47,538 bases of DNA from Oscillospiraceae bacterium (GTDB lineage Bacteria; Bacillota; Clostridia; Oscillospirales; Oscillospiraceae). Made by a program: the position numbers and the translations under genes. Location: positions 1 to 47,538 of the forward strand of contig JAFTMI010000037.1 in the NCBI GenBank assembly GCA_017452505.1. The letters are read 5' to 3'. The notes under the pieces were generated by a model, which was given only the letters and a program-made list of their open reading frames with translations, made no database searches and was not told the DNA's origin. Positions 29,222 through 47,190 of the stretch are shown one piece after another. Position 1 is the stretch's first letter. Every line of letters begins with the position of its first letter.

Positions 29222-29410
29222 TTAAGTATTATGGGTCTTTTCGTGCTGGGTGCCGAAGTAGAAAGACACCACCATAGACACGATAATCATCACATTATCA
29301 GGACTGATCCGTCCCTGCAGAGCCAGTATGGAAAACACCGTCACCACCGCAAAGGTGACAATGGTTTTCACTTTCAGAAGCTCTGCAAACTTTTTGAGAA
29401 TTTCCTGCAT
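29222..29410 (-). CDS. Holin-like small membrane protein
   Basis: 62 aa with two hydrophobic segments (about 15-31 and 38-54) joined by a short turn, a basic amphipathic start and a polar His-containing tail. Size, topology and position next to the endolysin fit a class II holin that lets the lysin reach the wall. Last gene of the phage-like cluster, one base after the previous gene. Confidence 0.65.
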   Translation of the reverse strand: MQEILKKFAELLKVKTIVTFAVVTVFSILALQGRISPDNVMIIVSMVVSFYFGTQHEKTHNT

Positions 29411-29411
29411 C

Positions 29412-29663
29412 TTATACCTCCCTTTCCAAATCCGCCAGGCGGTGATTGATGACCTTGATCTGCTCCTCCACCACGGGCATTCTTTGGGCGAAGCCGTTGT
29501 GAAGTCTGACCTCCCGGGTCAGCTCTTCGATCTTGGTATCGGTCACAGCCTGGGCGATGGCAGTTGCTCGCTCCGTCTTTTTGGATGTAGCGACACAGGT
29601 GACCACCACACCGACAAGGGACAATCCGCCGGTGATCAACGCCACAACAATCGCATCGCTCAT
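29412..29663 (-). CDS. Small membrane-anchored coiled-coil protein of the lysis module
   Basis: 83 aa from the ATG at 29663 (GGGGGTGA at 6 bases; a GTG at 29672 is less likely). One hydrophobic segment (about 4-25) is followed by a coiled-coil helix of about 50 residues. It is like the XhlA-type proteins beside phage holins and lysins but with the membrane segment at the N-terminus. The function is inferred from position. Confidence 0.6.
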   Translation of the reverse strand: MSDAIVVALITGGLSLVGVVVTCVATSKKTERATAIAQAVTDTKIEELTREVRLHNGFAQRMPVVEEQIKVINHRLADLEREV

Positions 29664-29675
29664 ACCTATCACCCC

Positions 29676-30428
29676 CTATGCCATACCAAGAAGCCTTTTC
29701 CAGGTCTTATTCTTAGCGGTGATCTCTCCGTCTGCCCAGCAGCCGTTATCCTTTTGGAAATGGGTCACAGCCGCGGTAAACTTTGCACCGGCAATGCCGT
29801 CAGCCTCACCAACCTCGGTATACCCCAAAGCAAACAGTCGCTTTTGCACAGCCAGCACGGCCTTGTGGTATCGGTTTTTGTATCCGGACAAGGTCACAGT
29901 CTTGGAGAGGGTTTCCGGACCAGCCTTGCCATCCACGGAGGCACCACAGGCACTCTGCACATCCCAAACGAAATCATAGAGGGTGTAACCCTTTTCCTCT
30001 TTCTCAGGAGCGCCGCCAAAGGTGGTGCGCCGCTGCTGGGCGTGGCTATACCAAAAGGACTTACTTTCCCGGGTGTCGATATGTACAAAGGTATCATACA
30101 GGCCGATGCCCTTGATACCGATACTCTCGGCATACTTGGCGATTTCCGCAGGTGCTACCCCGTCAATATGGAAGTCAGCAGCCTGTCCATAACAGTGATA
30201 GCTGTTGGGCGCAGCATTGGCAACCTTTGCATTATGTGTCTTGCAGCGGTAAGCTGTGACATACACAGGCTTTCCGAAGTGGGTACGGATCTGCTGAAGA
30301 TAGTCCACCAACTTATCATCAATAGGCGTCGCAGCACAGCAACCGCGTCCCTGGCAGTCAAATTCTCTTGCCCGAAAATTGGCGGCGATCTTCGTTGCAT
30401 CACCCTTTTTGTATGTTTTGATAGCCAT
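29676..30428 (-). CDS. Endolysin: M15A peptidase with C-terminal peptidoglycan-binding domain
   Basis: 250 aa. The N-terminal domain carries the zinc site of M15 peptidases: SYHCYGQAADFHI gives H78 and D85, and FVHIDTR gives H116. The second half (about 140-250) is a peptidoglycan-binding domain with AVQKRLFALGYTEVGEADGIAGAKFTAAVTHFQ. It would cut peptide crosslinks of peptidoglycan to release particles. No signal peptide, so it depends on the neighbouring holin-like protein. Confidence 0.85.
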   Translation of the reverse strand: MAIKTYKKGDATKIAANFRAREFDCQGRGCCAATPIDDKLVDYLQQIRTHFGKPVYVTAYRCKTHNAKVANAAPNSYHCYGQAADFHIDGVAPAEIAKYAESIGIKGIGLYDTFVHIDTRESKSFWYSHAQQRRTTFGGAPEKEEKGYTLYDFVWDVQSACGASVDGKAGPETLSKTVTLSGYKNRYHKAVLAVQKRLFALGYTEVGEADGIAGAKFTAAVTHFQKDNGCWADGEITAKNKTWKRLLGMA

Positions 30429-30440
30429 AGTTTATTCCTC

Positions 30441-31637
30441 CTATTTCTTGGTGTACTTTACCGTGATGTGAGCGGTGTATTGACTTCCGGATACTATTGT
30501 GGTAATGGCATCTGTGGTTGTAATATTCACAGTTGTGTTTCCTTCTTCCGTAGCATAACCCGCATAGATATACGCGCAGGTATTTCCACTATAAAAATAG
30601 GGCAACGGAAAATATCCGCTATCATTATCTCTTGTTAAATAGCCCTTGATTTCTATAATATCCACGGATTCTTCTGCTACCGAAATATTTGTTGAACCGG
30701 TGGTCTTTAGCGCTGCACTGTCCATATACTTGACATAAACAGGCTTGCCGTTATGCCTTTCTGTCGTTCGGTATTCCACACCCGCAACCATAGGGGGATT
30801 CACATATTCCCATTCTCCCCACACAGAATTTTCACAAAATCGTCTCGCCTCAACAATATTTCCTTCTGCAACACAGAATGCCATTTGCGCATTATTTCCG
30901 CTATGTTGGCTGGAAGTAATGCCCCACCACCAATTACCGTTTGGCGAATCGGTATCAGCACGATAAAAGCCGCTTTCTCTTGCTGAGTTCCAACGAACCG
31001 AGGGGGAATTTTTTGTTCCCAAGCCATAACCTGCGGGCGCCGCGCCTGCCTGGGCTGCTGTTACACCGTGGGGGTTTTCCCGGTCGAACAGGTGGGGAAT
31101 CAACTGCTCCGGATCGCTGCTGCCATCCAGATTGCTGACCGCATCCCGGAATTCTTTTTGAGTTACCGCTCCTATCTGATCACAGGTCACACTGTGGGGA
31201 TTGGCTTTATTGCTGATATGCTCACTTAGCTGCGGTTCCATATTGGCAATCCGGCCTAAGGTCTGCTGCCAAATGGGGTTGGAAGGCTCTAACGCAGGGT
31301 CTCCCTCCGGGTCAACACCGGTGTAAACCGGTGCCACCTTGGTCCAAAGGGTAGGTATTACCACCGTTCCTTCCGGGTTTGCGCCGTAAACGCCAACTGT
31401 GAGCCACAGATCAGGCTTTTCCAACACCTCCCAAGGAACAGTATGGGTATTCCCCTCCAAAGCTGCGGTAATCACCTTATCCCCAGCCCGGAATATTACC
31501 GTCTTTCCCAAGTTATCCCAGTGGCTGTCAAAACTAAATTCCGCCTCCAGACCCACTGTACCGGCTGTGATTGCTGCCGGGCGCTCTACCACTTGGATCT
31601 GACTTGCTGACACTTGTAATTTGATTTTCTCCATCAT
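30441..31637 (-). CDS. Phage tail fibre-like protein with pyocin-knob region
   Basis: 398 aa. The N-terminal half contains two ENPHGVT-type repeats (KANPHSVT near 154 and RENPHGVT near 190), common in fibre shafts. The middle (about 215-280) has the RESGFYRADTDSPNGNWWW and GEWEYVN elements of a pyocin-knob domain. The C-terminal 100 residues are beta-rich and look like a receptor-binding tip. The start may be 31637 or the next codon, 31634. Confidence 0.75.
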   Translation of the reverse strand: MMEKIKLQVSASQIQVVERPAAITAGTVGLEAEFSFDSHWDNLGKTVIFRAGDKVITAALEGNTHTVPWEVLEKPDLWLTVGVYGANPEGTVVIPTLWTKVAPVYTGVDPEGDPALEPSNPIWQQTLGRIANMEPQLSEHISNKANPHSVTCDQIGAVTQKEFRDAVSNLDGSSDPEQLIPHLFDRENPHGVTAAQAGAAPAGYGLGTKNSPSVRWNSARESGFYRADTDSPNGNWWWGITSSQHSGNNAQMAFCVAEGNIVEARRFCENSVWGEWEYVNPPMVAGVEYRTTERHNGKPVYVKYMDSAALKTTGSTNISVAEESVDIIEIKGYLTRDNDSGYFPLPYFYSGNTCAYIYAGYATEEGNTTVNITTTDAITTIVSGSQYTAHITVKYTKK

Positions 31638-31652
31638 TTCCTCCTTTCTGAT

Positions 31653-32642
31653 TTACATAGGAATATTCCTGCGGTAAGTACCGGTACATTCCAGGATGCT
31701 CTTTTGGCCGCATTGGGTCTTTTTCATCACGTACATCAGAACTTCTTGAGAATTCCTGTCCCGAATCCGCAGAATGTCCCCGCTCTTTACCCGAACGGCT
31801 GCAGGCACAGTCACTGTGCCGGGGGTATATCGCAGCGGGTTCAGATGCTCATACAGAACCCGGGCCAAGCCCTCAAAGGATTCATTGGGCACAACGGCCA
31901 TCAACTGATTGCCGGTGATCACATAGGCATTGCCACCGTTTCCGTAAATATAGCCTCTTTCCTTTCTGTCCGCGCGGATAACAATTTTATCGATTGCATG
32001 GGTCAAATAATCGCCGTGGGAAAAGGAATCTAAGAAAACAAACTTGTTATCTCCCTCCCAAACCGGCTCTTCTGCATCGGCGTACCACTCAAGTGAAATA
32101 TCTCCATCGGGGGTAGCCCGGCAAAACCGGCAGGATAGCTCTCCCACCCAGCGCATCAGCTTGCTGCCCGTGACATTGACCACAGTGAATCTATGCACCG
32201 GCCACTCACCGTTGGTAAAATACCCGGGCAACAGATGCACACCACATGCATCGCATACCATTTGGGCAAAGGTTTGCAATTTATAGGGCCATCCGTCCAG
32301 ATTATCCACCCACGTAGATAAATCTTTATCCAGCCAACGCAAGCGGTCATAGGCTGTGATAAGATAGCGGTTCGGACTGGTGTAAACGGCATCTTCCACC
32401 GTAAACACCCCCACCTGTTCCTGCGTACCAGCCTCGTCAACTTTGTAAAGGGTCAGCTCCGAATCAACGGGAATATGCAGCTTTCCATTGGGTGCCAGCA
32501 GTTCTGCTTCCAGCACAGTGGGGCATACCGCACCCGGATTCAGTATTTTGCCTTCATTTACCTTTTCGGTGAGCTTCAACTGGCAAATAATATCTCCCCC
32601 AATTCTCCTGCCGTCAGCCAGGACGATCAGATTTCTTTCCAT
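31653..32642 (-). CDS. Phage tail hub-like protein
   Basis: 329 aa, mostly beta-rich, with VGVFTVEDAVYTSPNRYLITAYDRLRWLDKDLSTW near residues 75-110 and NLDGWPYKLQTFAQMVCDACGV following. This resembles baseplate or tail-hub proteins of Firmicutes siphoviruses, which attach the fibre. It lies directly upstream of the fibre gene. The assignment is by pattern and position only. Confidence 0.6.
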   Translation of the reverse strand: MERNLIVLADGRRIGGDIICQLKLTEKVNEGKILNPGAVCPTVLEAELLAPNGKLHIPVDSELTLYKVDEAGTQEQVGVFTVEDAVYTSPNRYLITAYDRLRWLDKDLSTWVDNLDGWPYKLQTFAQMVCDACGVHLLPGYFTNGEWPVHRFTVVNVTGSKLMRWVGELSCRFCRATPDGDISLEWYADAEEPVWEGDNKFVFLDSFSHGDYLTHAIDKIVIRADRKERGYIYGNGGNAYVITGNQLMAVVPNESFEGLARVLYEHLNPLRYTPGTVTVPAAVRVKSGDILRIRDRNSQEVLMYVMKKTQCGQKSILECTGTYRRNIPM

Positions 32643-32654
32643 AAGATCGCCTCC

Positions 32655-33023
32655 TTAACAGGCGGTAATCCGGAAACGGTAATCCCGGAACTGGCCGTCA
32701 GCGGCGCAATGCCACAAAATACTGTGCTTGCTCCGGTAGGCTGTGATCTCCTGTTTGACACCGCTACAGGGAGATGTAAACCCAAAGGTAAAGGTATCTT
32801 TTTGACCAAATAACCCTTCCATATAGGCATACTCCTCCTGCGACAGCCGGGAATAGGAAAAGTCCCAGCTTTGGACATTGCGCCGCAGAACGTATCGGTG
32901 GTAATTGCCGTTTTCATCGTGACCAGAATCCGAGGACTCCATATCCTCTGCCAAAAACGCAAGATCTCCATCCGGCACCAAAACGGGTTTGCCATCAATG
33001 GTAAACAAATCCGTTGTTCGCAT
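32655..33023 (-). CDS. Phage distal-tail/adaptor-like protein
   Basis: 122 aa from the ATG at 33023 (GGAGG at 6 bases; the longer frame to 33044 lacks a site). RRNVQSWDFSYSRLSQEEYAYMEGLFGQKDTFTFGF is the recognisable stretch, as seen in small tail proteins placed before the hub in Clostridia phages. It overlaps the preceding gene by 29 bases. Confidence 0.6.
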   Translation of the reverse strand: MRTTDLFTIDGKPVLVPDGDLAFLAEDMESSDSGHDENGNYHRYVLRRNVQSWDFSYSRLSQEEYAYMEGLFGQKDTFTFGFTSPCSGVKQEITAYRSKHSILWHCAADGQFRDYRFRITAC

Positions 33024-33405
33024 ATAGCCCCTCCTTTGCGTCAATATCCTTACAGAAGTTAACTGCCAGCGTCACGGTACACAGACCGCAATTCAGCCGG
33101 GAAACTTCGTTGGCTTCGGCCTTCTTTATCTGCACTGCATTGGTCTGCTCGGTCAGCCAGTTTTCAAAGTCCAGCAGCCACTGGGCGCTGTCCTGCCCGG
33201 GCTGCATCCGATGATACAGGGTAAACAAGCACTGATACCGCACCTGCATATTTCCCAGCAGATCCACATACCGGTCCACCTCTGTAACTCCCCCGGGAAA
33301 CAGGCCGGAATTTCCCGGCCCGTCCTGGGTAAAATCCACAGGCAATTCCCCGTCAAAGCCGGGAAACCCCAGCAGGAATTGCCGCAGCTTTTCCAAAATT
33401 TCCAT
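32995..33405 (-). CDS. Phage tail-terminator or minor tail-like protein
   Basis: 136 aa. The central QVRYQCLFTLYHRMQPGQDSAQWLLDFENWLTEQT and a C-terminal beta strand region resemble tail-terminator proteins that close the head-tail junction. It lies between the connector and the distal-tail-like gene, where a normal siphovirus would go on to tail tube and tape measure; those are absent here. Identification is moderate. Confidence 0.55.
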   Translation of the reverse strand: MEILEKLRQFLLGFPGFDGELPVDFTQDGPGNSGLFPGGVTEVDRYVDLLGNMQVRYQCLFTLYHRMQPGQDSAQWLLDFENWLTEQTNAVQIKKAEANEVSRLNCGLCTVTLAVNFCKDIDAKEGLYANNGFVYH

Positions 33406-33711
33406 TTACTGCTTCACTCCCCGGTAAATATCCAGATAGATGGATGCCTTCTCGTAAAGCTCCCGGCTGAGGGATTGTCTTTCGCCGGACTTACTGCCGG
33501 AGAAAGACAGTTCCCCGCGACCGCGGCTCCACAAGGACTCCGCCATGGCGCATATAGCCATATTTTCTGCCGACCAGCCGGAAGACACAACCCGATATTT
33601 GCCTTTAAAGCACTCCAGCCACTGCCGGGCCTGGGCCGCCACACCGGAAAATGCCTTTTCCGGAATGGCGCTGCCCAGGTAATCATTCACATAGAACTCA
33701 TAATCCACCAC
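33406..33711 (-). CDS. Phage head-tail connector-like protein (gp6/gp15 type)
   Basis: 101 aa, mainly helical. EFYVNDYLGSAIPEKAFSGVAAQARQWL is typical of the first connector that docks under the portal. GTG start with GGAGG 8 bases upstream. It lies between the capsid gene and the terminator-like gene, as expected. Confidence 0.65.
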   Translation of the reverse strand: MVDYEFYVNDYLGSAIPEKAFSGVAAQARQWLECFKGKYRVVSSGWSAENMAICAMAESLWSRGRGELSFSGSKSGERQSLSRELYEKASIYLDIYRGVKQ

Positions 33712-33728
33712 AGGCAGCGCCTCCCTTA

Positions 33729-34679
33729 TCAGTTAGCGGCGATGGCGATGTCCTTGAGGACAGCAGCCTTCAGGGTGTTCTTCAGCACAACACCTGCCAC
33801 CAGCTCCACCTCACCGGTCTTCACAGCGCCGGGGGCGTTCAGGTCGGGCAGATACGCCTGGATCACACCGTCACCCATGGGAGAAATGCCGTGGAAACCA
33901 TCCAGACCCAGGGAAACCGCGTAAATGGCGGTCTTTCCAGCCTCGGTGGCTACCACATCTTCTACGGTCTCGCCGTTGTAGAACTGACCCATATCCACCA
34001 TGGGCACACCGGCATAGGTCTCCACCGTGCGGCCGAAATCGTCCTGGGTGCGCTCATAGTAACCGGCGCGGCGGGCGATGGAACGCAGCTTTACCAGCAT
34101 GGAGCGGTTCATCAGCAGCATGGAGGGCGTGCCGTCCAGAATGCTGATGAAGCTGTCCATCTCGTCCAGGAATGCGTTGTAGTTCTCGTCCAGTTCGTCG
34201 GAGGTCTTCAGGCTGACAGCACTGGTCAGCTCATTGGCAGTGCCGCTCAGCAGCTTCTTGAGGCCGTCAAAAGTGCCCTCATCGCTGGTGCCGTTAATGA
34301 CCAGGTTGTGGAAATAATTGGCGGTTGCCTTGATCTTCTGCTCCGCCTGGAAAGCCATCTCATTGGCTGCGCCGGCGGTATTCTGGATCACACGGTCCAT
34401 CTGGAATGCGCCGCCCATAATGATCGCATTGGCGGTCTTCTTTTCCTTCTTGGCTTCGCCGGGGGTGTACTCACCGCCCACAGTACGCACTGCTGCGGTG
34501 GAGGGGGACTTCAGCTGAATGTAGCCGTAAGTCAGAGTGCTGCCGCCGGTGCCGGGAGAGATGACATTGTCAAACACCATCTGATCCAGCAACAGGCTGC
34601 TGCGGCGGAACATATCCACGATCTGCTGATCGACCTTATCCGCCATACCGATTTTTGCTTCTGCTAATGTAATTGCCAT
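33729..34679 (-). CDS. Phage major capsid protein
   Basis: 316 aa of the HK97-fold type. Features are the N-terminal helix, the beta strand region around GGSTLTYGYIQLKSPSTAAVRTVGGEYTPGEAKKEKK (extended arm), the spine-helix-like part, and the LDGTPSMLLMNRSMLVKLRSIARRAG segment followed by the A-domain. No prohead protease is in the cluster, in keeping with a gp20-type scaffold system. Host-like codon use and intact frame. Confidence 0.8.
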   Translation of the reverse strand: MAITLAEAKIGMADKVDQQIVDMFRRSSLLLDQMVFDNVISPGTGGSTLTYGYIQLKSPSTAAVRTVGGEYTPGEAKKEKKTANAIIMGGAFQMDRVIQNTAGAANEMAFQAEQKIKATANYFHNLVINGTSDEGTFDGLKKLLSGTANELTSAVSLKTSDELDENYNAFLDEMDSFISILDGTPSMLLMNRSMLVKLRSIARRAGYYERTQDDFGRTVETYAGVPMVDMGQFYNGETVEDVVATEAGKTAIYAVSLGLDGFHGISPMGDGVIQAYLPDLNAPGAVKTGEVELVAGVVLKNTLKAAVLKDIAIAAN

Positions 34680-34685
34680 AATTAT

Positions 34686-35165
34686 TTACTTCCTTTCAAA
34701 TTTTTCAAGTAATGCGCCTGCCAAGGTGGCAGGACCTTTGTTTTCCTGCGGTGCTGCTGCACCTGTGCCCCTTGCGTAAGGGGGCGGGGTCTCCGTTTGG
34801 AATAAGTAGCTACATTCCTGCTTCAAGGTCTGCAGCGTCTCTTCCAAAGCGGTCTGCTGATTTTCGCTGGCTTTCAGGGCATCCACATCCAAAAGGGCGG
34901 TGATGGCCTTGGCATTGCGGCCCTTTGCCGCCAGAATTGCCTTTTCCAGATTGTGACCGAAGACCACGCTTTGAAGTTCCTCCCGGTGAGCAGTCAACGC
35001 CTGGTTATACTTCTCCTCCCAAGCGCCTGCCGCGCCGTCAAGCTCTGCAAAGCGAGCCTTTACGGCCTCAATATCCCGTCCGTTCTCCGCCATAATGGCA
35101 TCGATGACCTCTTTGGGCAGAGGGCTTCCCTCCACCTGTAATCCCTGCAAAAATTCTCGTTTCAT
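34686..35165 (-). CDS. Phage scaffolding protein (gp20 type)
   Basis: 159 aa from the ATG at 35165 (AAGGAG at 6 bases). An acidic coiled-coil middle (about 35-70) is followed by ILAAKGRNAKAITALLDVDALK, the recognised motif of the phage minor-structural GP20 scaffold family. A Pro/Gly-rich tail follows. It lies directly before the capsid gene as usual and would template capsid assembly. Confidence 0.8.
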   Translation of the reverse strand: MKREFLQGLQVEGSPLPKEVIDAIMAENGRDIEAVKARFAELDGAAGAWEEKYNQALTAHREELQSVVFGHNLEKAILAAKGRNAKAITALLDVDALKASENQQTALEETLQTLKQECSYLFQTETPPPYARGTGAAAPQENKGPATLAGALLEKFERK

Positions 35166-35351
35166 ACATTCTCCTTTCCTATGCTTTTGTACGGGGTCGC
35201 ATCCCGATCGTTTTGGCCTTTTTACGCCGGCCAAGGCATATAAAAAAGCAGCCTCCCGACTGCTTCCTTAACAGATTGAATTACTTCCTACCGCTGCACA
35301 CCAAAACGAAAAACCTTAAACCGCACCTCCAGCAATGCGCCCGGAGGGGTA

Positions 35352-35405
35352 CATAGGGGAGGGGCGGTTCGCAAGCGGGAGTTGCGGCTCAGCCCCTCCC
35401 CTATG
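35352..35405. repeat. Long palindrome with 14-bp perfect arms
   Basis: CATAGGGGAGGGGC (35352-35365) and its complement (35392-35405) enclose 26 bases. The TAGGGGAGGG core is shared with 6325-6359. It is inserted in the portal-scaffold gap of the phage-like cluster. Confidence 0.8.
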
Positions 35406-35417
35406 GCGCATTCTTTG

Positions 35418-35447
35418 GGTACTTTCTTGGCGAAACAAGAAAGTACC
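35418..35447. repeat. Palindrome with 12-bp perfect arms at the portal stop codon
   Basis: GGTACTTTCTTG and CAAGAAAGTACC around six bases, ending one base before the portal stop codon on its 3' side. Same element as the neighbouring palindrome or a partner of it. No T run follows. Confidence 0.8.
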
Positions 35448-35448
35448 A

Positions 35449-36738
35449 TTAACTCGGCATCAGTTTTTCCCGGATGGTTTTATCATCTGCATCGGCCATA
35501 CCGAACCGCCAGGCAAGGGCCACTTCCGGCTTCAGGATGCCCCGGGAAACCATTTCCATATAATCCGCCCAGGTCTTCTCCTGGTCGTAAAGGACACCGT
35601 TGCCCCAGTCAAAGCGAACCTTACCCAAATCCCGGCAAGGCAGCCCGTAAAGCTCAGCAAGCTGACCGCACAGGGCCATCACTTCCTCCACCGCGCTCTG
35701 CCAAATATGCTGAAAATCCAACACCGTCAGAGAATACTCCATGGCGCTGGCGGTGATCTCCGTGGCAGTCCGGTCATCCATATTGGTGTCGGAAATCATA
35801 CCCCGGCGCAAGCCCAAAAGGGTCTCCAAATTCCGCAGATATTCCTGTTTTCGGGCAAGATAAGATCCCTCCCGCAATTGAGGAGAAAACACTGTCAGTC
35901 CCACCCGTTCGGGATCATCATCCAAGCCCACGAACAGATGATCCTGCAGACCCTGCTCTGCGTCCAGCAGATCCCGGGAGGCAAACACCCGGCTCTCGCC
36001 CCGCTCAAATTCTCCGTTCATTTGGGCTTCGTTGCGGTCAATGTTGCGGATCAGACCCTCAGCGGGGGCATATACCGCCACGCCGTCGTTGGAGCCGTCC
36101 ACACAGTTGAGCATAGGCAGTTTCATCGTCACCAGGCCCACAGAACCCACAGGCTTTTCAAATCGGTAGCTTTCCGCCAAATTGCTGTAAGCCGGAACAT
36201 TCTTAAGAGGCACTTCCGCGCCTAAATTCCGGCTGTCGCCACTGCGATAGAGCTTGTTTTGAATGGTGAGATACCCTTCCGCATCCACGCTTCTGCGCTC
36301 GAGCAGCGTGTAATAGGCATTACCCCATACACTTTTCTCCACCAAACCCATATCCGTGGGCCGACCTGCCCCATCGGCGCTAAAGATCAGCGCTCTGTTC
36401 CGGGGAACCAGGGTAAAGGAAAACCCCGTCCCGGTAGGACAGGGCTTGATGTAACAGCTGCCACCAACCAGCGCCAACTGCATGGCGATCCGTTTCTTCT
36501 CGTCTAAGCTTTTCAGAACACGCTGCCCCAAGGGGGTATCTGCCTCCACCTTGTACTCACCGAATACCGACTTTACCAGCTTATTCACCACAGTATAGGG
36601 AATCCGCTGGCATGGGTCTGTATGCTCCGTGGCTGTGCTTTCATAGTACATCTGAAACCATCGCTCGATGGCCTTGCGCATGGCGCTGCTGGTTTTATCC
36701 GCAGCACCAAAGGCCTGCTCATAATTGTAAATACTCAT
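35449..36738 (-). CDS. Phage portal protein (SPP1 gp6-like)
   Basis: 429 aa. The dodecameric portal forms the DNA channel at one capsid vertex. Recognisable parts are the N-terminal IPYTVVNKLVKSVFGEY, the central beta region, and the crown/stem part with YLRNLETLLGLRRGMISDTNMDDRTATEI, a portal-family motif, plus the C-terminal WGNGVLYDQEKTWADYMEMVSRGILKPE. GGGGAGGTG precedes the ATG. It overlaps the previous small gene by 4 bases. Confidence 0.85.
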   Translation of the reverse strand: MSIYNYEQAFGAADKTSSAMRKAIERWFQMYYESTATEHTDPCQRIPYTVVNKLVKSVFGEYKVEADTPLGQRVLKSLDEKKRIAMQLALVGGSCYIKPCPTGTGFSFTLVPRNRALIFSADGAGRPTDMGLVEKSVWGNAYYTLLERRSVDAEGYLTIQNKLYRSGDSRNLGAEVPLKNVPAYSNLAESYRFEKPVGSVGLVTMKLPMLNCVDGSNDGVAVYAPAEGLIRNIDRNEAQMNGEFERGESRVFASRDLLDAEQGLQDHLFVGLDDDPERVGLTVFSPQLREGSYLARKQEYLRNLETLLGLRRGMISDTNMDDRTATEITASAMEYSLTVLDFQHIWQSAVEEVMALCGQLAELYGLPCRDLGKVRFDWGNGVLYDQEKTWADYMEMVSRGILKPEVALAWRFGMADADDKTIREKLMPS

Positions 36739-36920
36739 TTTTCACCTCCCCGGCTGCGCCCTACCGCCCGCAGGCCTGTCTTTAACCCCCGGGCATAGGC
36801 ATCCAGCCGATCAACTTCTTGCTGAAGGGCCTGGTTTTCCTGCTTCAACTGCCGATTTTCCCGCAGCACGGTTTCTTTGGCCCACATAGGCAGGAATTTA
36901 TTCACCAGATAATTCTTCAT
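36735..36920 (-). CDS. Small coiled-coil protein between terminase and portal
   Basis: 61 aa. A hydrophobic start (NYLVNKFLPMWA) is followed by a heptad coiled coil (ENRQLKQENQALQQEVDRLDAY) and a basic tail. It begins inside the end of the large terminase gene with GGAGG 8 bases ahead, and its stop overlaps the portal start, so it is probably translated. Function unknown. Confidence 0.6.
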   Translation of the reverse strand: MKNYLVNKFLPMWAKETVLRENRQLKQENQALQQEVDRLDAYARGLKTGLRAVGRSRGGEK

Positions 36921-38148
36921 TGCTTCTTCCTCCATTGTTTCGTCGTTTGCGCCCCAATACCGTGGCGCAGAAATAGCGGATATCGTCCATTGCGTGATCG
37001 TTTTCTTTCTGCACACGATCGATTTGTCCGTCTTCTTCCCAGCGATACAGGGAAAATTCCCGGATGGCATCCTTGCAGCAAGGGGCAAATTGCAAGCACC
37101 CCTCCCGGAGCAGCGACCCCACCAATCGGATACCGGAGAGCACTTCGTTTCTCGCTTTCCGGACAGAGAACCGTCTGTGAGCGCGGATCGTGGCAATAAA
37201 CGATGCCGCCGAAGGGTCTACCACCACAAATTCCACCGGCAAGCTTCCGGCAAGGTGCTCCAGCTCCCGGTAGTACTCCTCGTCTGTGAGCATTTTCCCG
37301 CTGTCCCGGCCGCTGTGGTAAAATTCTCTTATTCGCACCGCCCGGCCATCTGATACGCACCAAAGGCCCGCAGAAAAGGGATTTCTTGTGCCGTAGTCCA
37401 CGGAAATGTAGTACCGGCCGTTTTGGGGGATATCCTTTGTAATATGCCGCTGGGGCTCAAACTCGTATACCAGCCCCTCCGCCATACACCATTGCCCCAG
37501 AATATACCGCCGATAGAATACGCCTGTGTACATTGCCTCGTACCGGGCGCGGATTGCCGGATCAAGCCCCGGATTGTCCGCCATCGTGAAGTGCAGATGG
37601 AGCAGGTTTTTCTGCTGGGCTTTTTGAATCCATTCTTTATAGAGCCAGTGCTCCGGCCCTTCCGGATTACAGTTAAACCACAGCTTCGACCCCGCCACCG
37701 AACACCGGGCGCAGGCCTGCTCCACAAAGGACCTGGGCATCAGCGCTACCTCATCCAGCAGCACCCCCGCTAAAGTAATACCTTGGATCACCTTATAGGC
37801 GCTTTCGTCCTGACCGCCAAAGAGATAATAGGTATTGCTTCTTCCCGTCCGGTCAGTAACCACCAGCTTATTTTCGCTGCGGTTTTCCCGAATCTGTACC
37901 ACACCCCCCAGCCACGCCGGGAGATTGCCGATGATATTCCGCCGCAACGCGCCGATGGTCCTGCCGCACAGGCCAAAACAGTACCCATCAAAGCAGGTCA
38001 TGCTCCACAGAAAAAAACCGGTCACCATACTTAAGGTCTTTCCCGAACGGATAGCGCCGTCGCAGATGATACCCTCCCGCTCCTTGAGCTTCGGTCGATT
38101 CCACCAGGTCATTGCCAACAGCTGCCGCTTACTGAAGCTCTGATACAT
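36898..38148 (-). CDS. Phage terminase large subunit
   Basis: 416-aa DNA-packaging motor. Walker A GAIRSGKT is at residues 31-38, Walker B VLLDE ends at D132-E133, and a coupling region is near WFNCNPEGPEHW. The C-terminal RNase H-like nuclease has YISVDYGTRNP and FVVVDPSAASF as acidic strands. All motor and nuclease motifs appear intact. The ATG at 38148 is used because it overlaps the small subunit by 20 bases with GGAGG upstream; the frame up to 38223 lacks a site. Confidence 0.9.
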   Translation of the reverse strand: MYQSFSKRQLLAMTWWNRPKLKEREGIICDGAIRSGKTLSMVTGFFLWSMTCFDGYCFGLCGRTIGALRRNIIGNLPAWLGGVVQIRENRSENKLVVTDRTGRSNTYYLFGGQDESAYKVIQGITLAGVLLDEVALMPRSFVEQACARCSVAGSKLWFNCNPEGPEHWLYKEWIQKAQQKNLLHLHFTMADNPGLDPAIRARYEAMYTGVFYRRYILGQWCMAEGLVYEFEPQRHITKDIPQNGRYYISVDYGTRNPFSAGLWCVSDGRAVRIREFYHSGRDSGKMLTDEEYYRELEHLAGSLPVEFVVVDPSAASFIATIRAHRRFSVRKARNEVLSGIRLVGSLLREGCLQFAPCCKDAIREFSLYRWEEDGQIDRVQKENDHAMDDIRYFCATVLGRKRRNNGGRSNEELSGE

Positions 38149-38464
38149 CACAGGTATCCACCTCCTGTCCGGTTGCTTGCAGGATCGCCTCCAGCAGATT
38201 GTTTTCTTTTTCTTCCCGGGCATCCGCCCCTTCGAACAGACCTAAGTACTTCCCCAGCAGTTCCAACGCTTTCATTTTGTCGTAAAACTTCACCTTGATG
38301 CCGGTGGTGGATTTTTCTACAGATGCAACCGCCGCCCGCTGCCGGGGCTTCAAATCCTCCCGCAAACGGATCTGTCCGTCCTCCACCACCAAAAGATCCG
38401 GCGCTCGTGCAAAGGCAATGGCCGCCAGCTCGTTTATGATTTTCTCCGGTGATATCTTTGCCAT
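38129..38464 (-). CDS. Phage terminase small subunit-like protein
   Basis: 111 aa, first gene of the cluster. The N-terminal part has helices with ELAAIAFARAPDLL. DLKPRQRAAVASVEKSTTGIKVKFYDKMKALELLGKYLGLFEG is the recognisable terminase-small-subunit pattern. It would recognise DNA for packaging. GAGGATC precedes the ATG. Confidence 0.78.
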   Translation of the reverse strand: MAKISPEKIINELAAIAFARAPDLLVVEDGQIRLREDLKPRQRAAVASVEKSTTGIKVKFYDKMKALELLGKYLGLFEGADAREEKENNLLEAILQATGQEVDTCDVSELQ

Positions 38465-38524: not shown

Positions 38525-38663
38525 TCGCGTCTTGCGTCTGCTGTTGGCATACACAGCATACCACAGTTTTTACAGAAAGTCTTCTCGTTTTTTTATCAAC
38601 CTTTTGAGATTGCAATTTGCCCCGTCACTGTGCTATAATAGATTCAATTCTAAGAAAGGCGCG

Positions 38664-45099: not shown

Positions 45100-45140
45100 T
45101 GTCGGTTTTTCACGGCCCGTGTCGGTTTTGTGTCGGTTTC
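45100..45140 (+). repeat. Three direct repeats, probable integrase arm sites
   Basis: TGTCGGTTTT occurs at 45100-45109 and 45120-45129, and TGTCGGTTTC at 45131-45140, between the att site and the end of the integrase gene. Short repeats in this position are typical arm-type binding sites for tyrosine integrases. Confidence 0.65.
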
Positions 45141-46327
45141 TATGCTTGCTTAATTGCGTCCCGGAAGATCTGACTCGCCCTCTTTATGCTCTCTTGATCG
45201 GCATGGGTATACATCCGGAGTGTGACAGCTTTATCGGTGTGCCCCAGCTTTTCAGACACACTGGCAATGTCTGCGCCGTTGGTGATGGCGATACTGGCAA
45301 AGCTGTGCCGGAGCTTGTGAGGGTGCAACCCCTGAACACCATACTTCCTTGCAAAGTTTTGCAGATAACGGGCAGGACTTTGGGGATGGATAGGCTCAGC
45401 ACTGCCTTCCTGGGTAAAGACGTATTGGCTGATGGCTTTCTTGCTTTGCTCAAGCCGAAGCTCACGCAGCAGCGCAATGATTTGCGGATCCACATCAATG
45501 GTACGGCTCCATCCGTTCTTGGGGGTATCCAGATAGATGCCCTTGTCCGGGGTATAACAGAGGTTACCACAGATGGTGATAGTGTTCTTTGCAAAGTCCA
45601 CATCCTTCCACTGTAGTCCGCAGCATTCTCCCCGGCGGATGCCGGTGTCGATCAGCAACCGGATCATTGCCCGCCATTTCAGCGGCTCTTGCGATAGACA
45701 ATTCCAGATGTGCCGGATCTCCTCCACAGTATAAGCCTCCGCTTCCAGCGTTTTCACTTCATCCTTACGAGGTCTGGGGCGCTGCACCTTGTCCATGGGG
45801 TTTCGGTCGATCAGATCTGCCAGATATGCCATTTTGAACAGTCCTTGCAGGACAGTATACACTTTGATCACGGTACTGTGGCTTTTGTTTTGTGCCTGCA
45901 TGGATAGCAACAGCGCAGTAATCTGTGCGGCCGTTACCTCCGGAAGCTTGAAATCTCCTAAAACGGGATATATCCACTTATTCAAATTCCCTTGATAGCC
46001 TGTCCGTGTGTTCTCAGAACAACGGATTGCCAGAGAAGGCATAAACACCGTTTCACCGTATTGCTTTAAGGTTTTTATCTGCGCGGCTTCCAGTGCCTTT
46101 CGGTAGCTCTCTACGCGCTCTTCCTGCCGGGTAATTACCTCCCCGGCTTTGACCTTTCGCTCAAATTCCACTGCCACTTTGACCAGCTCCCGGTCAATGG
46201 CTTTTTGACTCCAGCCTGCAGGCGGATACCACCTTGTGGTAAGACGGGGGATGCCCCTGCCTCGGGATACGGAGATCTCGTAAAAGGGAGTTCCGTCCTT
46301 CGTATTCAGTTTTCTTGTGGATGCCAT
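45140..46327 (-). CDS. int: Tyrosine recombinase (integrase)
   Basis: 395 aa. The arm-binding and SAM-like core-binding domains (about 1-180) precede the catalytic domain. The catalytic set is visible: R231 (TGIRRGE), K270 region, H337 and R340 in HPHKLRH, H363 (LGHTD) and Y373 (RMYTH). It drives integration and excision at the adjacent tRNA-Thr att site. The ATG at 46327 has GGAG at 7 bases; the longer frame is rejected. An inverted repeat and an opposing promoter lie in its 5' region. Confidence 0.93.
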   Translation of the reverse strand: MASTRKLNTKDGTPFYEISVSRGRGIPRLTTRWYPPAGWSQKAIDRELVKVAVEFERKVKAGEVITRQEERVESYRKALEAAQIKTLKQYGETVFMPSLAIRCSENTRTGYQGNLNKWIYPVLGDFKLPEVTAAQITALLLSMQAQNKSHSTVIKVYTVLQGLFKMAYLADLIDRNPMDKVQRPRPRKDEVKTLEAEAYTVEEIRHIWNCLSQEPLKWRAMIRLLIDTGIRRGECCGLQWKDVDFAKNTITICGNLCYTPDKGIYLDTPKNGWSRTIDVDPQIIALLRELRLEQSKKAISQYVFTQEGSAEPIHPQSPARYLQNFARKYGVQGLHPHKLRHSFASIAITNGADIASVSEKLGHTDKAVTLRMYTHADQESIKRASQIFRDAIKQA

Positions 46328-46342
46328 AAGTATACTCCTTTC

Positions 46343-46371
46343 TTGACAGTGCGCCTGAAAAAGGGTATAAT
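46343..46371 (+). promoter_or_regulatory. Perfect consensus promoter opposite int
   Basis: TTGACA (46343-46348), 17 bases, TATAAT (46366-46371), directed away from int. The flanking 8-bp inverted repeat AGTGCGCC (46348-46355) and GGCGCACT (46375-46382) overlaps its -35 and start point. Confidence 0.85.
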
Positions 46372-46377
46372 ATGGGC

Positions 46378-46456
46378 GCACTAATGCCTTATGATTTGAT
46401 AGTCTTGGGGTTTCTGTGCGTAACCGTGTAGGAGTTGCCGCTCCTGCACGGTTTTT
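46378..46456 (+). ncRNA. Putative small RNA of about 80 nt
   Basis: A perfect sigma-A promoter is followed after about 45 bases by an intrinsic terminator: AACCGTGTAGGAG and CTCCTGCACGGTT (46422-46453) around six bases, then a run of T. No open reading frame with a ribosome site fits. Its promoter and start region overlap the int leader on the opposite strand, so it could interfere with int or act elsewhere. Confidence 0.6.
46422..46456 (+). terminator. Intrinsic terminator of the putative small RNA
   Basis: 13-bp stem with one non-pair (T/C side) and loop TTGCCG, followed by TTTTT. The T run is on the plus strand only, so it does not serve the minus-strand genes. Confidence 0.85.
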
Positions 46457-46527
46457 CTATTTTATTGTAGGTAATTCCCTTTCAAAATACTAATATAGGA
46501 TTTGTCCACTTCTTGTATAGATTCGGT

Positions 46528-47121
46528 TTATTTATTATCTATCAATCCATTTTCCAGAAGGTATCTTTGAATCTGTTCATCTCTGGGATCGGTTTCAAAC
46601 CATCCGCCGCTTCCGTCATCGAAAACCTCGGTTGCCTTGTTCATCATTTCCTGTAATCGAAACCTTGCATATACTGCACATTCTTCCTCTAGAATGTCAC
46701 GATACACTGCGTCATCAAGAAGAAATAACCGTTTGCGGTTGTAATCAACGATCAACGTGTGACCGTCTGCTCCGCCATAAGACTTCTGTGAAAACACATC
46801 TCCCAAACTACCGTCGGTTTCGGCAAATAGCTCGTAACCCAATGATTTAATGTAGGCACCAAAATGGTTTCTCTTGTTTATTTCATCGTCAACGGCTTCG
46901 GGCGTTAGATATTTGATAGGGGTAGGGCCAGGAAGGAGAAAGACGAGAATTGAAATATTTAATGCTTTGCAAATCCTGATGAGAATTTCATATCTTGGCT
47001 CTCGCTTGCCAAGCTCATACTGTTGGATGGTGCCTGTTGCTACCCCAGCAGCTTCGGCGAGCTGTTTTTGGGTCATTTTTCGATATTTTCGCGCCTCTTT
47101 TATGCGTTCGCCAGTCGTCAT
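46528..47121 (-). CDS. XRE/CI-type repressor of the integrative element
   Basis: 197 aa. The helix-turn-helix is at about residues 4-58 (ERIKEARKYRKMTQKQLAEAAGVATGTIQQYELGKREPRYEIL). The C-terminal 130 residues are of no family I recognise and lack an obvious Ser-Lys LexA protease pair. GAGGTGAT precedes the ATG at 47121. It probably binds the two 20-bp operators at 47194-47243 and holds the element silent. Confidence 0.85.
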   Translation of the reverse strand: MTTGERIKEARKYRKMTQKQLAEAAGVATGTIQQYELGKREPRYEILIRICKALNISILVFLLPGPTPIKYLTPEAVDDEINKRNHFGAYIKSLGYELFAETDGSLGDVFSQKSYGGADGHTLIVDYNRKRLFLLDDAVYRDILEEECAVYARFRLQEMMNKATEVFDDGSGGWFETDPRDEQIQRYLLENGLIDNK

Positions 47122-47190
47122 ACAATCACCTCGCATTCAATATAGCATATCTTCTTTGAAAAAGCAATCAAAAATATGTAAATTTCGGTA

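Follow-up and report, generated by a model that had tools for sequence, protein, structure and literature searches.

A phage-like operon without tail tube or tape measure, probably a domesticated gene-transfer-agent-like element, in an uncultured Oscillospiraceae genus

The window, that is, the whole 47,538-nucleotide stretch of DNA analyzed here, comes from a genus of Oscillospiraceae that is uncultured and lives in the guts of ruminants; where close relatives have a named source, it is mostly the gut of such a host (roe deer, water buffalo, goat, sheep, and water deer). At 29222-38464, on the minus strand, it carries a phage-like cluster of 14 open reading frames (ORFs), all uninterrupted and closely spaced within 9.2 kb, which we read as one operon. 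Intergenic gaps range from -29 to +17 bp, with the sole exception of 283 bp between the portal and scaffold genes. An earlier note on this DNA had described 14 packed, intact, phage-like genes on the minus strand, a description with which the protein families agree. In the order in which the operon is read, the features are:

38555..38601, minus strand: promoter-like element GGTTGATAAAAAAACGAGAAGAC...TGTGGTATGCT, upstream of TerS; related elements stand before TerS in relatives
38132..38464, minus strand: TerS, small terminase subunit (g1), 111 aa; Pfam Terminase_2, E 6.9e-11; N-terminal DNA-binding domain missing
36898..38148, minus strand: TerL, large terminase subunit, 416 aa; Terminase_6N; phrog_2, E 5.5e-49
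36735..36920, minus strand: 61-aa coiled-coil-like protein between TerL and portal, kept in relatives
35449..36738, minus strand: portal, 429 aa; phrog_533, E 2.1e-52
35294..35447, no strand assigned: dispersed host repeat in the portal/scaffold gap, with nine further matches in the genome
34686..35165, minus strand: scaffold, about 159 aa, start at 35165; PF06810, E 5.7e-23
33729..34679, minus strand: major capsid protein (MCP), 316 aa; phrog_212, E 7.1e-66
33406..33711, minus strand: head-tail adaptor-like protein (g7), 101 aa; phrog_541, E 2.2e-4
32995..33405, minus strand: tail-completion/terminator-like protein (g8), 136 aa; phrog_3266, E 2.4e-6
32655..33023, minus strand: candidate Dit-like ring protein of tail-tube fold (g9), 122 aa; phrog_1194 (function unknown); from a fold model
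31653..32642, minus strand: predicted central baseplate hub, 329 aa; phrog_6616 ("tail protein"); from a fold model
30441..31637, minus strand: fiber/receptor-binding-like protein, 398 aa; phrog_8147 and other fiber families
29676..30428, minus strand: M15 peptidase endolysin with peptidoglycan-binding domain; PF08291, E 6.6e-17; PF01471
29412..29672, minus strand: holin-like protein (g13), 86 aa; phrog_1863 (function unknown); role suggested by its place
29222..29410, minus strand: holin-like protein (g14), 62 aa; phrog_13256 (function unknown); role suggested by its place and a hydrophobic stretch

No tail tube, tail chaperone, or tape measure protein (TMP) is encoded in the cluster: g8 (32995-33405) and g9 (start at 33023) overlap by 29 bases at the place where full-tailed relatives carry these genes. 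The earlier note had drawn attention to this overlap, and comparison with relatives bears it out. At the same chromosomal locus, the full-tailed L165 has 3.2 kb between g8 and g9, encoding a tube (159 aa), two chaperone-like proteins, and a 505-aa TMP; in L167, g7 and g9 lie 3.6 kb apart, with a TMP match. We mapped 111 loci, near-duplicates included, of which 72 have g7 and g9 on the same strand; the other 39 do not have both genes and were not classed by gap, apart from L040, L042, L036, and L041, which were classed by inspection. Across the 72 loci the g7-g9 distance has two peaks, with 25 loci at 16-1,277 bp and 45 at 3,304-8,343 bp, the rest being L031 (2,424 bp) and L050, an artefact. 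Read directly, L031 keeps the tube and a TMP-like protein of 137 aa with the same kind of C-terminal end, L033 (84 aa) and L166 (73 aa, an internal start within a 148-aa frame) keep that TMP-like tail end alone, and L023 has lost g8 too; the window has no TMP remnant. The shortened TMPs (137, 84, and 73 aa) look like intermediates. Two further loci, L040 and L042, have no tube either, and their Dit/hub module is of another kind. The tube-less layout recurs in independent metagenome-assembled genomes (MAGs) and IMG/VR contigs, which makes an assembly artefact unlikely.

When duplicates are collapsed, 18 rows of the head-gene tree are tube-less. Sixteen of them fall in one 23-row group (support 100), which includes the loci on the tree that share the window's sanA-side position; the two outside it are L057 and L093, and L093 has a TerS with a helix-turn-helix (HTH) domain. 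A single origin of the tube-less form was rejected on this tree (16 rows as one clade, approximately unbiased test, p 0.0006, for a group picked after the tree had been seen and with modules that recombine), and at least three tube changes are required within the 23-row group. The tube-less L034 and the full-tailed L041 have identical portal fragments (167/167) and scaffolds (175/175), and L041 is in turn identical to L036 in g7 (106/106) and g8 (127/127). This sharing reflects either recombination between elements, in which case the tail can be swapped, or a chimeric metagenome contig in L041. Since modules move, the events of tube loss may be fewer or more than the tree suggests. Used as a query, the TMP of L165 had no match in G000 (82.5% complete), G051, or G021, a search that could miss distant TMPs, and found a local remnant only in G121. 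Second prophage regions occur in two genomes, L199 (contig C27 of G060), with tube, chaperones, and TMP, and L200 (contig C49 of G140), with TMP; both have a hub like that of L040 and L042.

For the two proteins that follow the gap, the structure searches that the earlier note had proposed gave results of unequal strength. The fold model of the 122-aa protein (pLDDT 88) has weak matches to baseplate, tube, and connector rings (best E 3.6e-4), with SPP1 Dit only at rank 50, and gives weak support to a ring of tube/Dit fold. The model of the 329-aa protein (pLDDT 90) matches the Mu gp44, MuSo2 43-kDa, and Listeria gp18 hubs (best E 1.1e-15), which supports its prediction as a central hub of the gp27/Tal type. 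The window hub has no counterpart of the C-terminal extension of about 180 aa seen in relatives (the L165 hub is 508 aa long). Searching PDB sequences with profiles of the Dit-like and hub proteins gave no useful match.

In the window TerS, the Terminase_2 match covers the profile from position 61 of 141 onward and nothing before it; in TerS from six sister phages (L092, L093, L094, L172, L178, and L180) it starts at position 1-3. Among the 57 loci with enough upstream DNA, again with near-duplicates, the HTH region is missing in 49 and present in eight; none of the 57 has it hidden in another frame, and five further loci could not be judged. Every readable TerS of the window's tree group is without the N-terminal DNA-binding domain. 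The HTH-type rows L092, L093, and L094 are the three with TerS read in a group of five, and on the unrooted tree a branch with full support divides this group from the remaining 62 rows. TerL of the sister phages is homologous to that of the window (58%-67% identity in L092, L094, L178, and L180), as is the capsid in L092 and L094; L180 has no window-type portal or capsid downstream, and in L178 the contig ends.

Replication genes lie upstream in all four of the HTH-type phages inspected (regions L245 for L092, L246 for L094, L247 for L178, and L244 for L180), where we found VapE, DNA polymerase A, ThyX, a single-stranded-DNA-binding protein, PriCT-2, helicases, and Cch/PDDEXK. Upstream genes were listed for eight window-type loci; six of these have host-like genes there and two (L182 and L251) are unclear. 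From their translations, we take the host-like genes to be sanA, sfsA, pgk/trmL-like, rnf-like, thioredoxin-system, and GtrA/aminotransferase-like genes. At other loci (L070, L091/L138, L133, and L140), repressor-like and ImmA-like genes, named by reading, lie upstream of TerS; the TerS of L140 is of the HTH type.

The promoter-like element consists of GGTTGGGAAAAAAACGGGAAGAYTTTT followed by an extended -10-like TGTGGTATGAT. Of 34 distinct upstream regions of the window type, 20 have it ahead of TerS, at several loci, and none of seven sister phages does. The window has one match, where none is expected by chance; the regular expression was composed after the sequences had been inspected, and over 457 kb of background, counting both strands, it finds ten matches, true sites among them. 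The element resembles MraZ repeats, but control by MraZ was not supported and, on thin evidence, was dropped: only one of 12 mraZ loci (L207) offered a true mraZ leader, and it is without the element.

The flanks named in the earlier note, metV and a sanA-like gene, were confirmed by matches to DUF5981 and MTHFR (metV/metF) on one side and to DUF218 on the other. The locus between larC-metFV and sanA holds the cluster in at least six species, a recurrence at one place for which the note had proposed to look. Four are tube-less (G000, G060, whose two sides are on two contigs, G140, and G121) and two full-tailed (G113, and G136, placed here on the evidence of the sanA side alone). In G121, G113, and L028, metVF has the inverse orientation. 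A search for an empty site in 15 metV regions found 12, among L184-L196, with metFV and, by the queries used, without sanA, larC, or cluster genes, and exceptions (L197 and L198) from cluster-bearing genomes; no clean empty site appeared among them.

We estimated pairwise dN/dS by the Nei-Gojobori method, leaving the fiber gene, whose region varies among relatives, outside the set; values at dS above about 1 are unreliable. Compared with G140, dN/dS is 0.05-0.22 in all 13 genes tested; it is 0.03-0.24 in 10/10 genes compared with G060 and 0.02-0.24 in 10/10 compared with L022, and 0.02-0.06 for the capsid gene against its three nearest copies. Tube-less pairs give values similar to those of full-tailed pairs. 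In the selection check that the earlier note had suggested, every one of the 13 genes shows purifying selection. The divergence of the element is in step with that of the flanking host genes, with overlapping dS ranges: against G140, dS is 0.19 for MCP, 0.42 for portal, 0.50 for TerL, and 0.53 for the hub, and 0.19-0.51 for the host flanks; against G060 it is 0.22 for TerL, 0.21 for portal, and 0.13 for MCP, and 0.03-0.25 for host genes, being higher for g9 (0.32) and the hub (0.58). At the protein level, TerL is 93% identical to that of G140 and 98% to that of G060; its motifs, read directly in the sequence, are Walker A/B-like and nuclease-like.

The broken frames and relaxed selection of a decaying prophage were not seen. 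In-frame stops occur in only 4/891 gene hits over the 111 loci, a count to which frameshifts would not add, as they would shorten hits instead. Away from contig ends, 45 hits fall below 80% length; 24 of these are g8, and the three in core genes all belong to L079. Stops flagged in some TerL matches are at or past the C-terminal end in the four loci checked, G105:C7 not being one of them. The earlier note had held that full prophages at this locus, together with decay of terminase or capsid genes in relatives, would mark the cluster as a remnant. The first part was found, as G113 and G136 are full-tailed at the same locus; the second was not, the terminase and capsid frames being open in the relatives read, except in L079. 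The window-type capsid looks genus-bound: a 400-genome sample of the family gave six matches, four at >70% identity, all in this genus, and two in other genera at 40%-44%, and none of 38 genomes from other families of the order had one.

Among the matches listed, no integrase directly adjoins the cluster, and no replication genes lie directly beside it. Near the contig end are a tyrosine integrase gene (PF00589; 45140-46381) and an XRE-like gene, named by reading (46528-47136). The 6.7 kb that separate them from TerS hold five host-like genes and one small ORF, and given this distance and the host-like genes they are considered to be outside the cluster; 45140-47136 is probably a separate integrated element. 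The earlier claim that integrase and repressor are missing from either side therefore holds for the immediate neighborhood and not for the window as a whole. Likewise, the host palindromes that had been described as dispersed within the cluster come down to the repeat at 35294-35447, since a genome search shows no more than one there; its nine other matches genome-wide correspond to about seven copies, and G140 has about 170 bp less DNA between portal and scaffold than the window.

We suggest, with a probability of roughly 0.72, that the cluster is a domesticated phage element resembling a gene transfer agent (GTA), vertically inherited, whose particle has become nearly tail-less. Gene content, the lack of tube and TMP, the truncated TerS, the shared locus, host-like divergence, purifying selection, and several tube-less lineages form its basis, and together with the lack of adjacent integrase and replication genes they favor domestication over a fresh prophage, as the earlier note had supposed. 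Within the species that share the sanA locus, the cluster shows the GTA hallmarks of phage structural genes that are chromosomal, vertically inherited, and under purifying selection; the hallmark of no adjacent integrase or replication genes was also found, among the integrase matches listed. Loss of the TerS DNA-binding domain has been proposed as defining GTA terminases (PMC6854486), and the same criterion is repeated in PMC7947584; the window TerS, too, is without this domain.

How such an element would work can be outlined from its genes. The promoter upstream of TerS, probably under host control, would drive the single operon. TerL, together with a TerS that has lost its DNA-binding domain, would need no phage pac site for packaging; its cargo is most likely random host DNA, and by analogy with GTAs the cluster probably packages the bacterium's own DNA. 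Heads would be built from capsid, scaffold, and portal, the portal being closed by the adaptor and terminator-like proteins, onto which the Dit ring, hub, and fiber would dock directly, giving a stub rather than a tube. The endolysin and holin-like proteins would release the particles. Delivery of the DNA to recipients is the weakest step of this model.

Several observations weigh against a GTA-like element. All data are MAGs and metagenomic contigs, with particles, packaged DNA, and transfer as predictions from them. Integrases are common in these genomes (31/31), and G138 has one about 3 kb ahead of TerS, past a single transporter-like gene. The repressor-like and ImmA-like genes upstream in four distinct relatives are prophage-like. 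The promoter-like element was missed in 14/34 upstream regions. Element dS against G140 is uneven, from 0.11 (scaffold) to 0.91 (endolysin), and dN/dS reaches 0.54 in a wider comparison (g7, window versus L023). One copy, L079, is heavily deleted, with TerL, portal, capsid, and hub all partial. Finally, because of the second prophage regions in G060 and G140, the tail might be borrowed.

A defective prophage remnant, which has lost its integration, replication, and tail genes and is in decay, would account for the missing tube and TMP, the host repeat inserted between genes, the differing break points of the relatives' deletions, and the state of L079. We consider it unlikely: frames are open across species, dN/dS is below 0.25 in the closest comparisons, and the element stays at one locus with divergence in step with host genes. 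Its full-tailed siblings, too, have neither an integrase nor replication genes directly beside them, which makes the loss of the tail look like a subsequent step in a lineage that was already domesticated. Less probable still is a satellite-like or split system, in which heads and tips come from the cluster and tube and TMP are supplied by another prophage in the cell. L199 and L200, with hubs resembling those of L040 and L042, speak for such a system in G060 and G140, but the L165 TMP, as a single query, was unmatched in G000, G051, and G021 and left only a local remnant in G121; no integrase is directly adjacent, among the matches listed, and Dit, hub, and fiber are retained in the cluster. 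A killing or decoy particle, using lysis genes and tips for interference competition with packaged DNA incidental, would suit the variable fiber region and the conserved 86- and 62-aa genes, and PBSX is discussed as a parallel in PMC12946183, but we think it very improbable, as TerL and capsid, which killing would not require, are among the most conserved genes.

Searching with TerL, we also came upon a second, head-only operon in this genus (L149:3612-9747, in G011), which encodes a short TerS, TerL, portal, a 298-aa protein, capsid, and 118-, 116-, and 226-aa proteins, followed by host genes. Its capsid occurs in 71/136 genomes of the genus, as a single copy in each and with no stop flagged, and across the order in 70/394 genomes (68 with one match) from 42/168 genera. 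With many comparisons at dS > 1, dN/dS is 0.07-0.27 for TerS, TerL, portal, the 298-aa protein, capsid, and the 118-aa protein, and 0.29-0.54 for the 116- and 226-aa proteins. This is likely an order-wide GTA head operon. Of 22 genomes in which a short TerS of the window type was verified, none has it, versus 71 of the 114 others (Fisher p 9.5e-9, with genome membership compiled by hand), and it is present in three genomes with a TerL relative of 60%-64% identity, G009 and G012 (HTH-type TerS) and G169 (TerS unread). One TMP query had no match in 10/10 head-only genomes tested. A search of 136 genomes for the L040-type hub found it in six, strongly in G060 and G140 and weakly in four, and revealed no baseplate locus for head-only genomes in general. 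Stand-alone endolysin-holin cassettes exist in some head-only genomes (L216-L218 and L219-L222), those of L216-L218 lying no more than about 1 kb from metVF in G109, G110, and G022; they are homologous to g13-g14 of the window and, in part, to the C-terminal end of its endolysin, and some carry a fiber-like gene (L222).

These forms can be arranged into a broader proposal, which we hold at even odds: that the genus preserves a stepwise domestication, from phages with HTH-type TerS and replication genes, through full-tailed, integrase-less GTA-type elements and cut-TMP elements, to tube-less ones in which the head joins the baseplate tip directly, with the tube lost repeatedly and able to return by recombination. 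In this view, the tube-less element and the order-wide head-only operon would stand in for one another from species to species, and a nearly tail-less GTA would be a recurrent end state in these gut bacteria. Few GTAs are known outside Alphaproteobacteria, and the route from phage to GTA has mostly been reconstructed from end points. As phage-like, full-tailed, shortened-TMP, and tube-less forms coexist here in one genus, the order of steps becomes directly testable, namely, whether TerS specificity and replication genes were lost before the tail. Nearly tail-less particles also raise the question of how DNA would pass through a Gram-positive wall without a tube. If active, the element would be a route of gene flow among herbivore-gut bacteria.

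Set against known systems, the cluster is the reverse of an F-type tailocin, which is a tail without head genes; here head genes are present and the tube is absent. A functional siphovirus prophage would be expected to have the tube, chaperones, and TMP that are missing. Capsid-forming phage-inducible chromosomal islands (cf-PICIs) have their own capsid and packaging genes and an incomplete tail, as the window does, together with an integrase and island regulators; unlike them, the cluster has no directly adjacent integrase among the matches listed, stays at a fixed locus, and has Dit, hub, fiber, and lysis genes. The sister phages of the same bacterial genus (L092, L094, L178, and L180) have a homologous TerL and differ by their HTH-type TerS and upstream replication module. 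The GTA of Rhodobacter capsulatus (RcGTA) has a head-to-tip structural operon of about 15 kb and keeps tube and TMP. The full-tailed siblings here resemble it in this head-to-tip layout, and TerS of RcGTA is also without HTH (PMC6854486); the host phylum is another, and the window form is without tube or TMP.

Analogy points to FpGTA of Faecalibacterium as the closest precedent of a nearly tail-less GTA-like element, and our literature search, which covered few subscription journals and preprints, gave the FpGTA paper as the one close precedent among the matches listed. In the available text of that paper (Borodovich et al. 2026, PMC12946183), FpGTA forms 40-nm particles with no identifiable tail, although short tails may, according to its authors, be lost or missed, and packages 8.4-8.9 kb of host DNA. 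The same text reports GTA-type packaging in the Oscillospiraceae genus Onthomonas (3/25 events) and names an operon for Faecalibacterium alone. By gene content, FpGTA, as described there, and the window share a TerS without obvious DNA-binding domain, TerL, portal, scaffold, and capsid, as well as baseplate, fiber, holin, and endolysin genes and a chromosomal location. FpGTA operon I is in all 12 Faecalibacterium genomes examined and operon II in 5/12 strains, the two lying about 125 kb apart in one strain (PMC12946183, as available), whereas the window has a single 9.2-kb operon. For the window cluster, full-tailed siblings and shortened-TMP relatives are known. Its split into head and baseplate/fiber/lysis operons is not shared by the window; separate cassettes do occur in some head-only genomes, and the head-only operon with its separate lysis cassettes resembles in gene layout the pair formed by FpGTA operons I and II.

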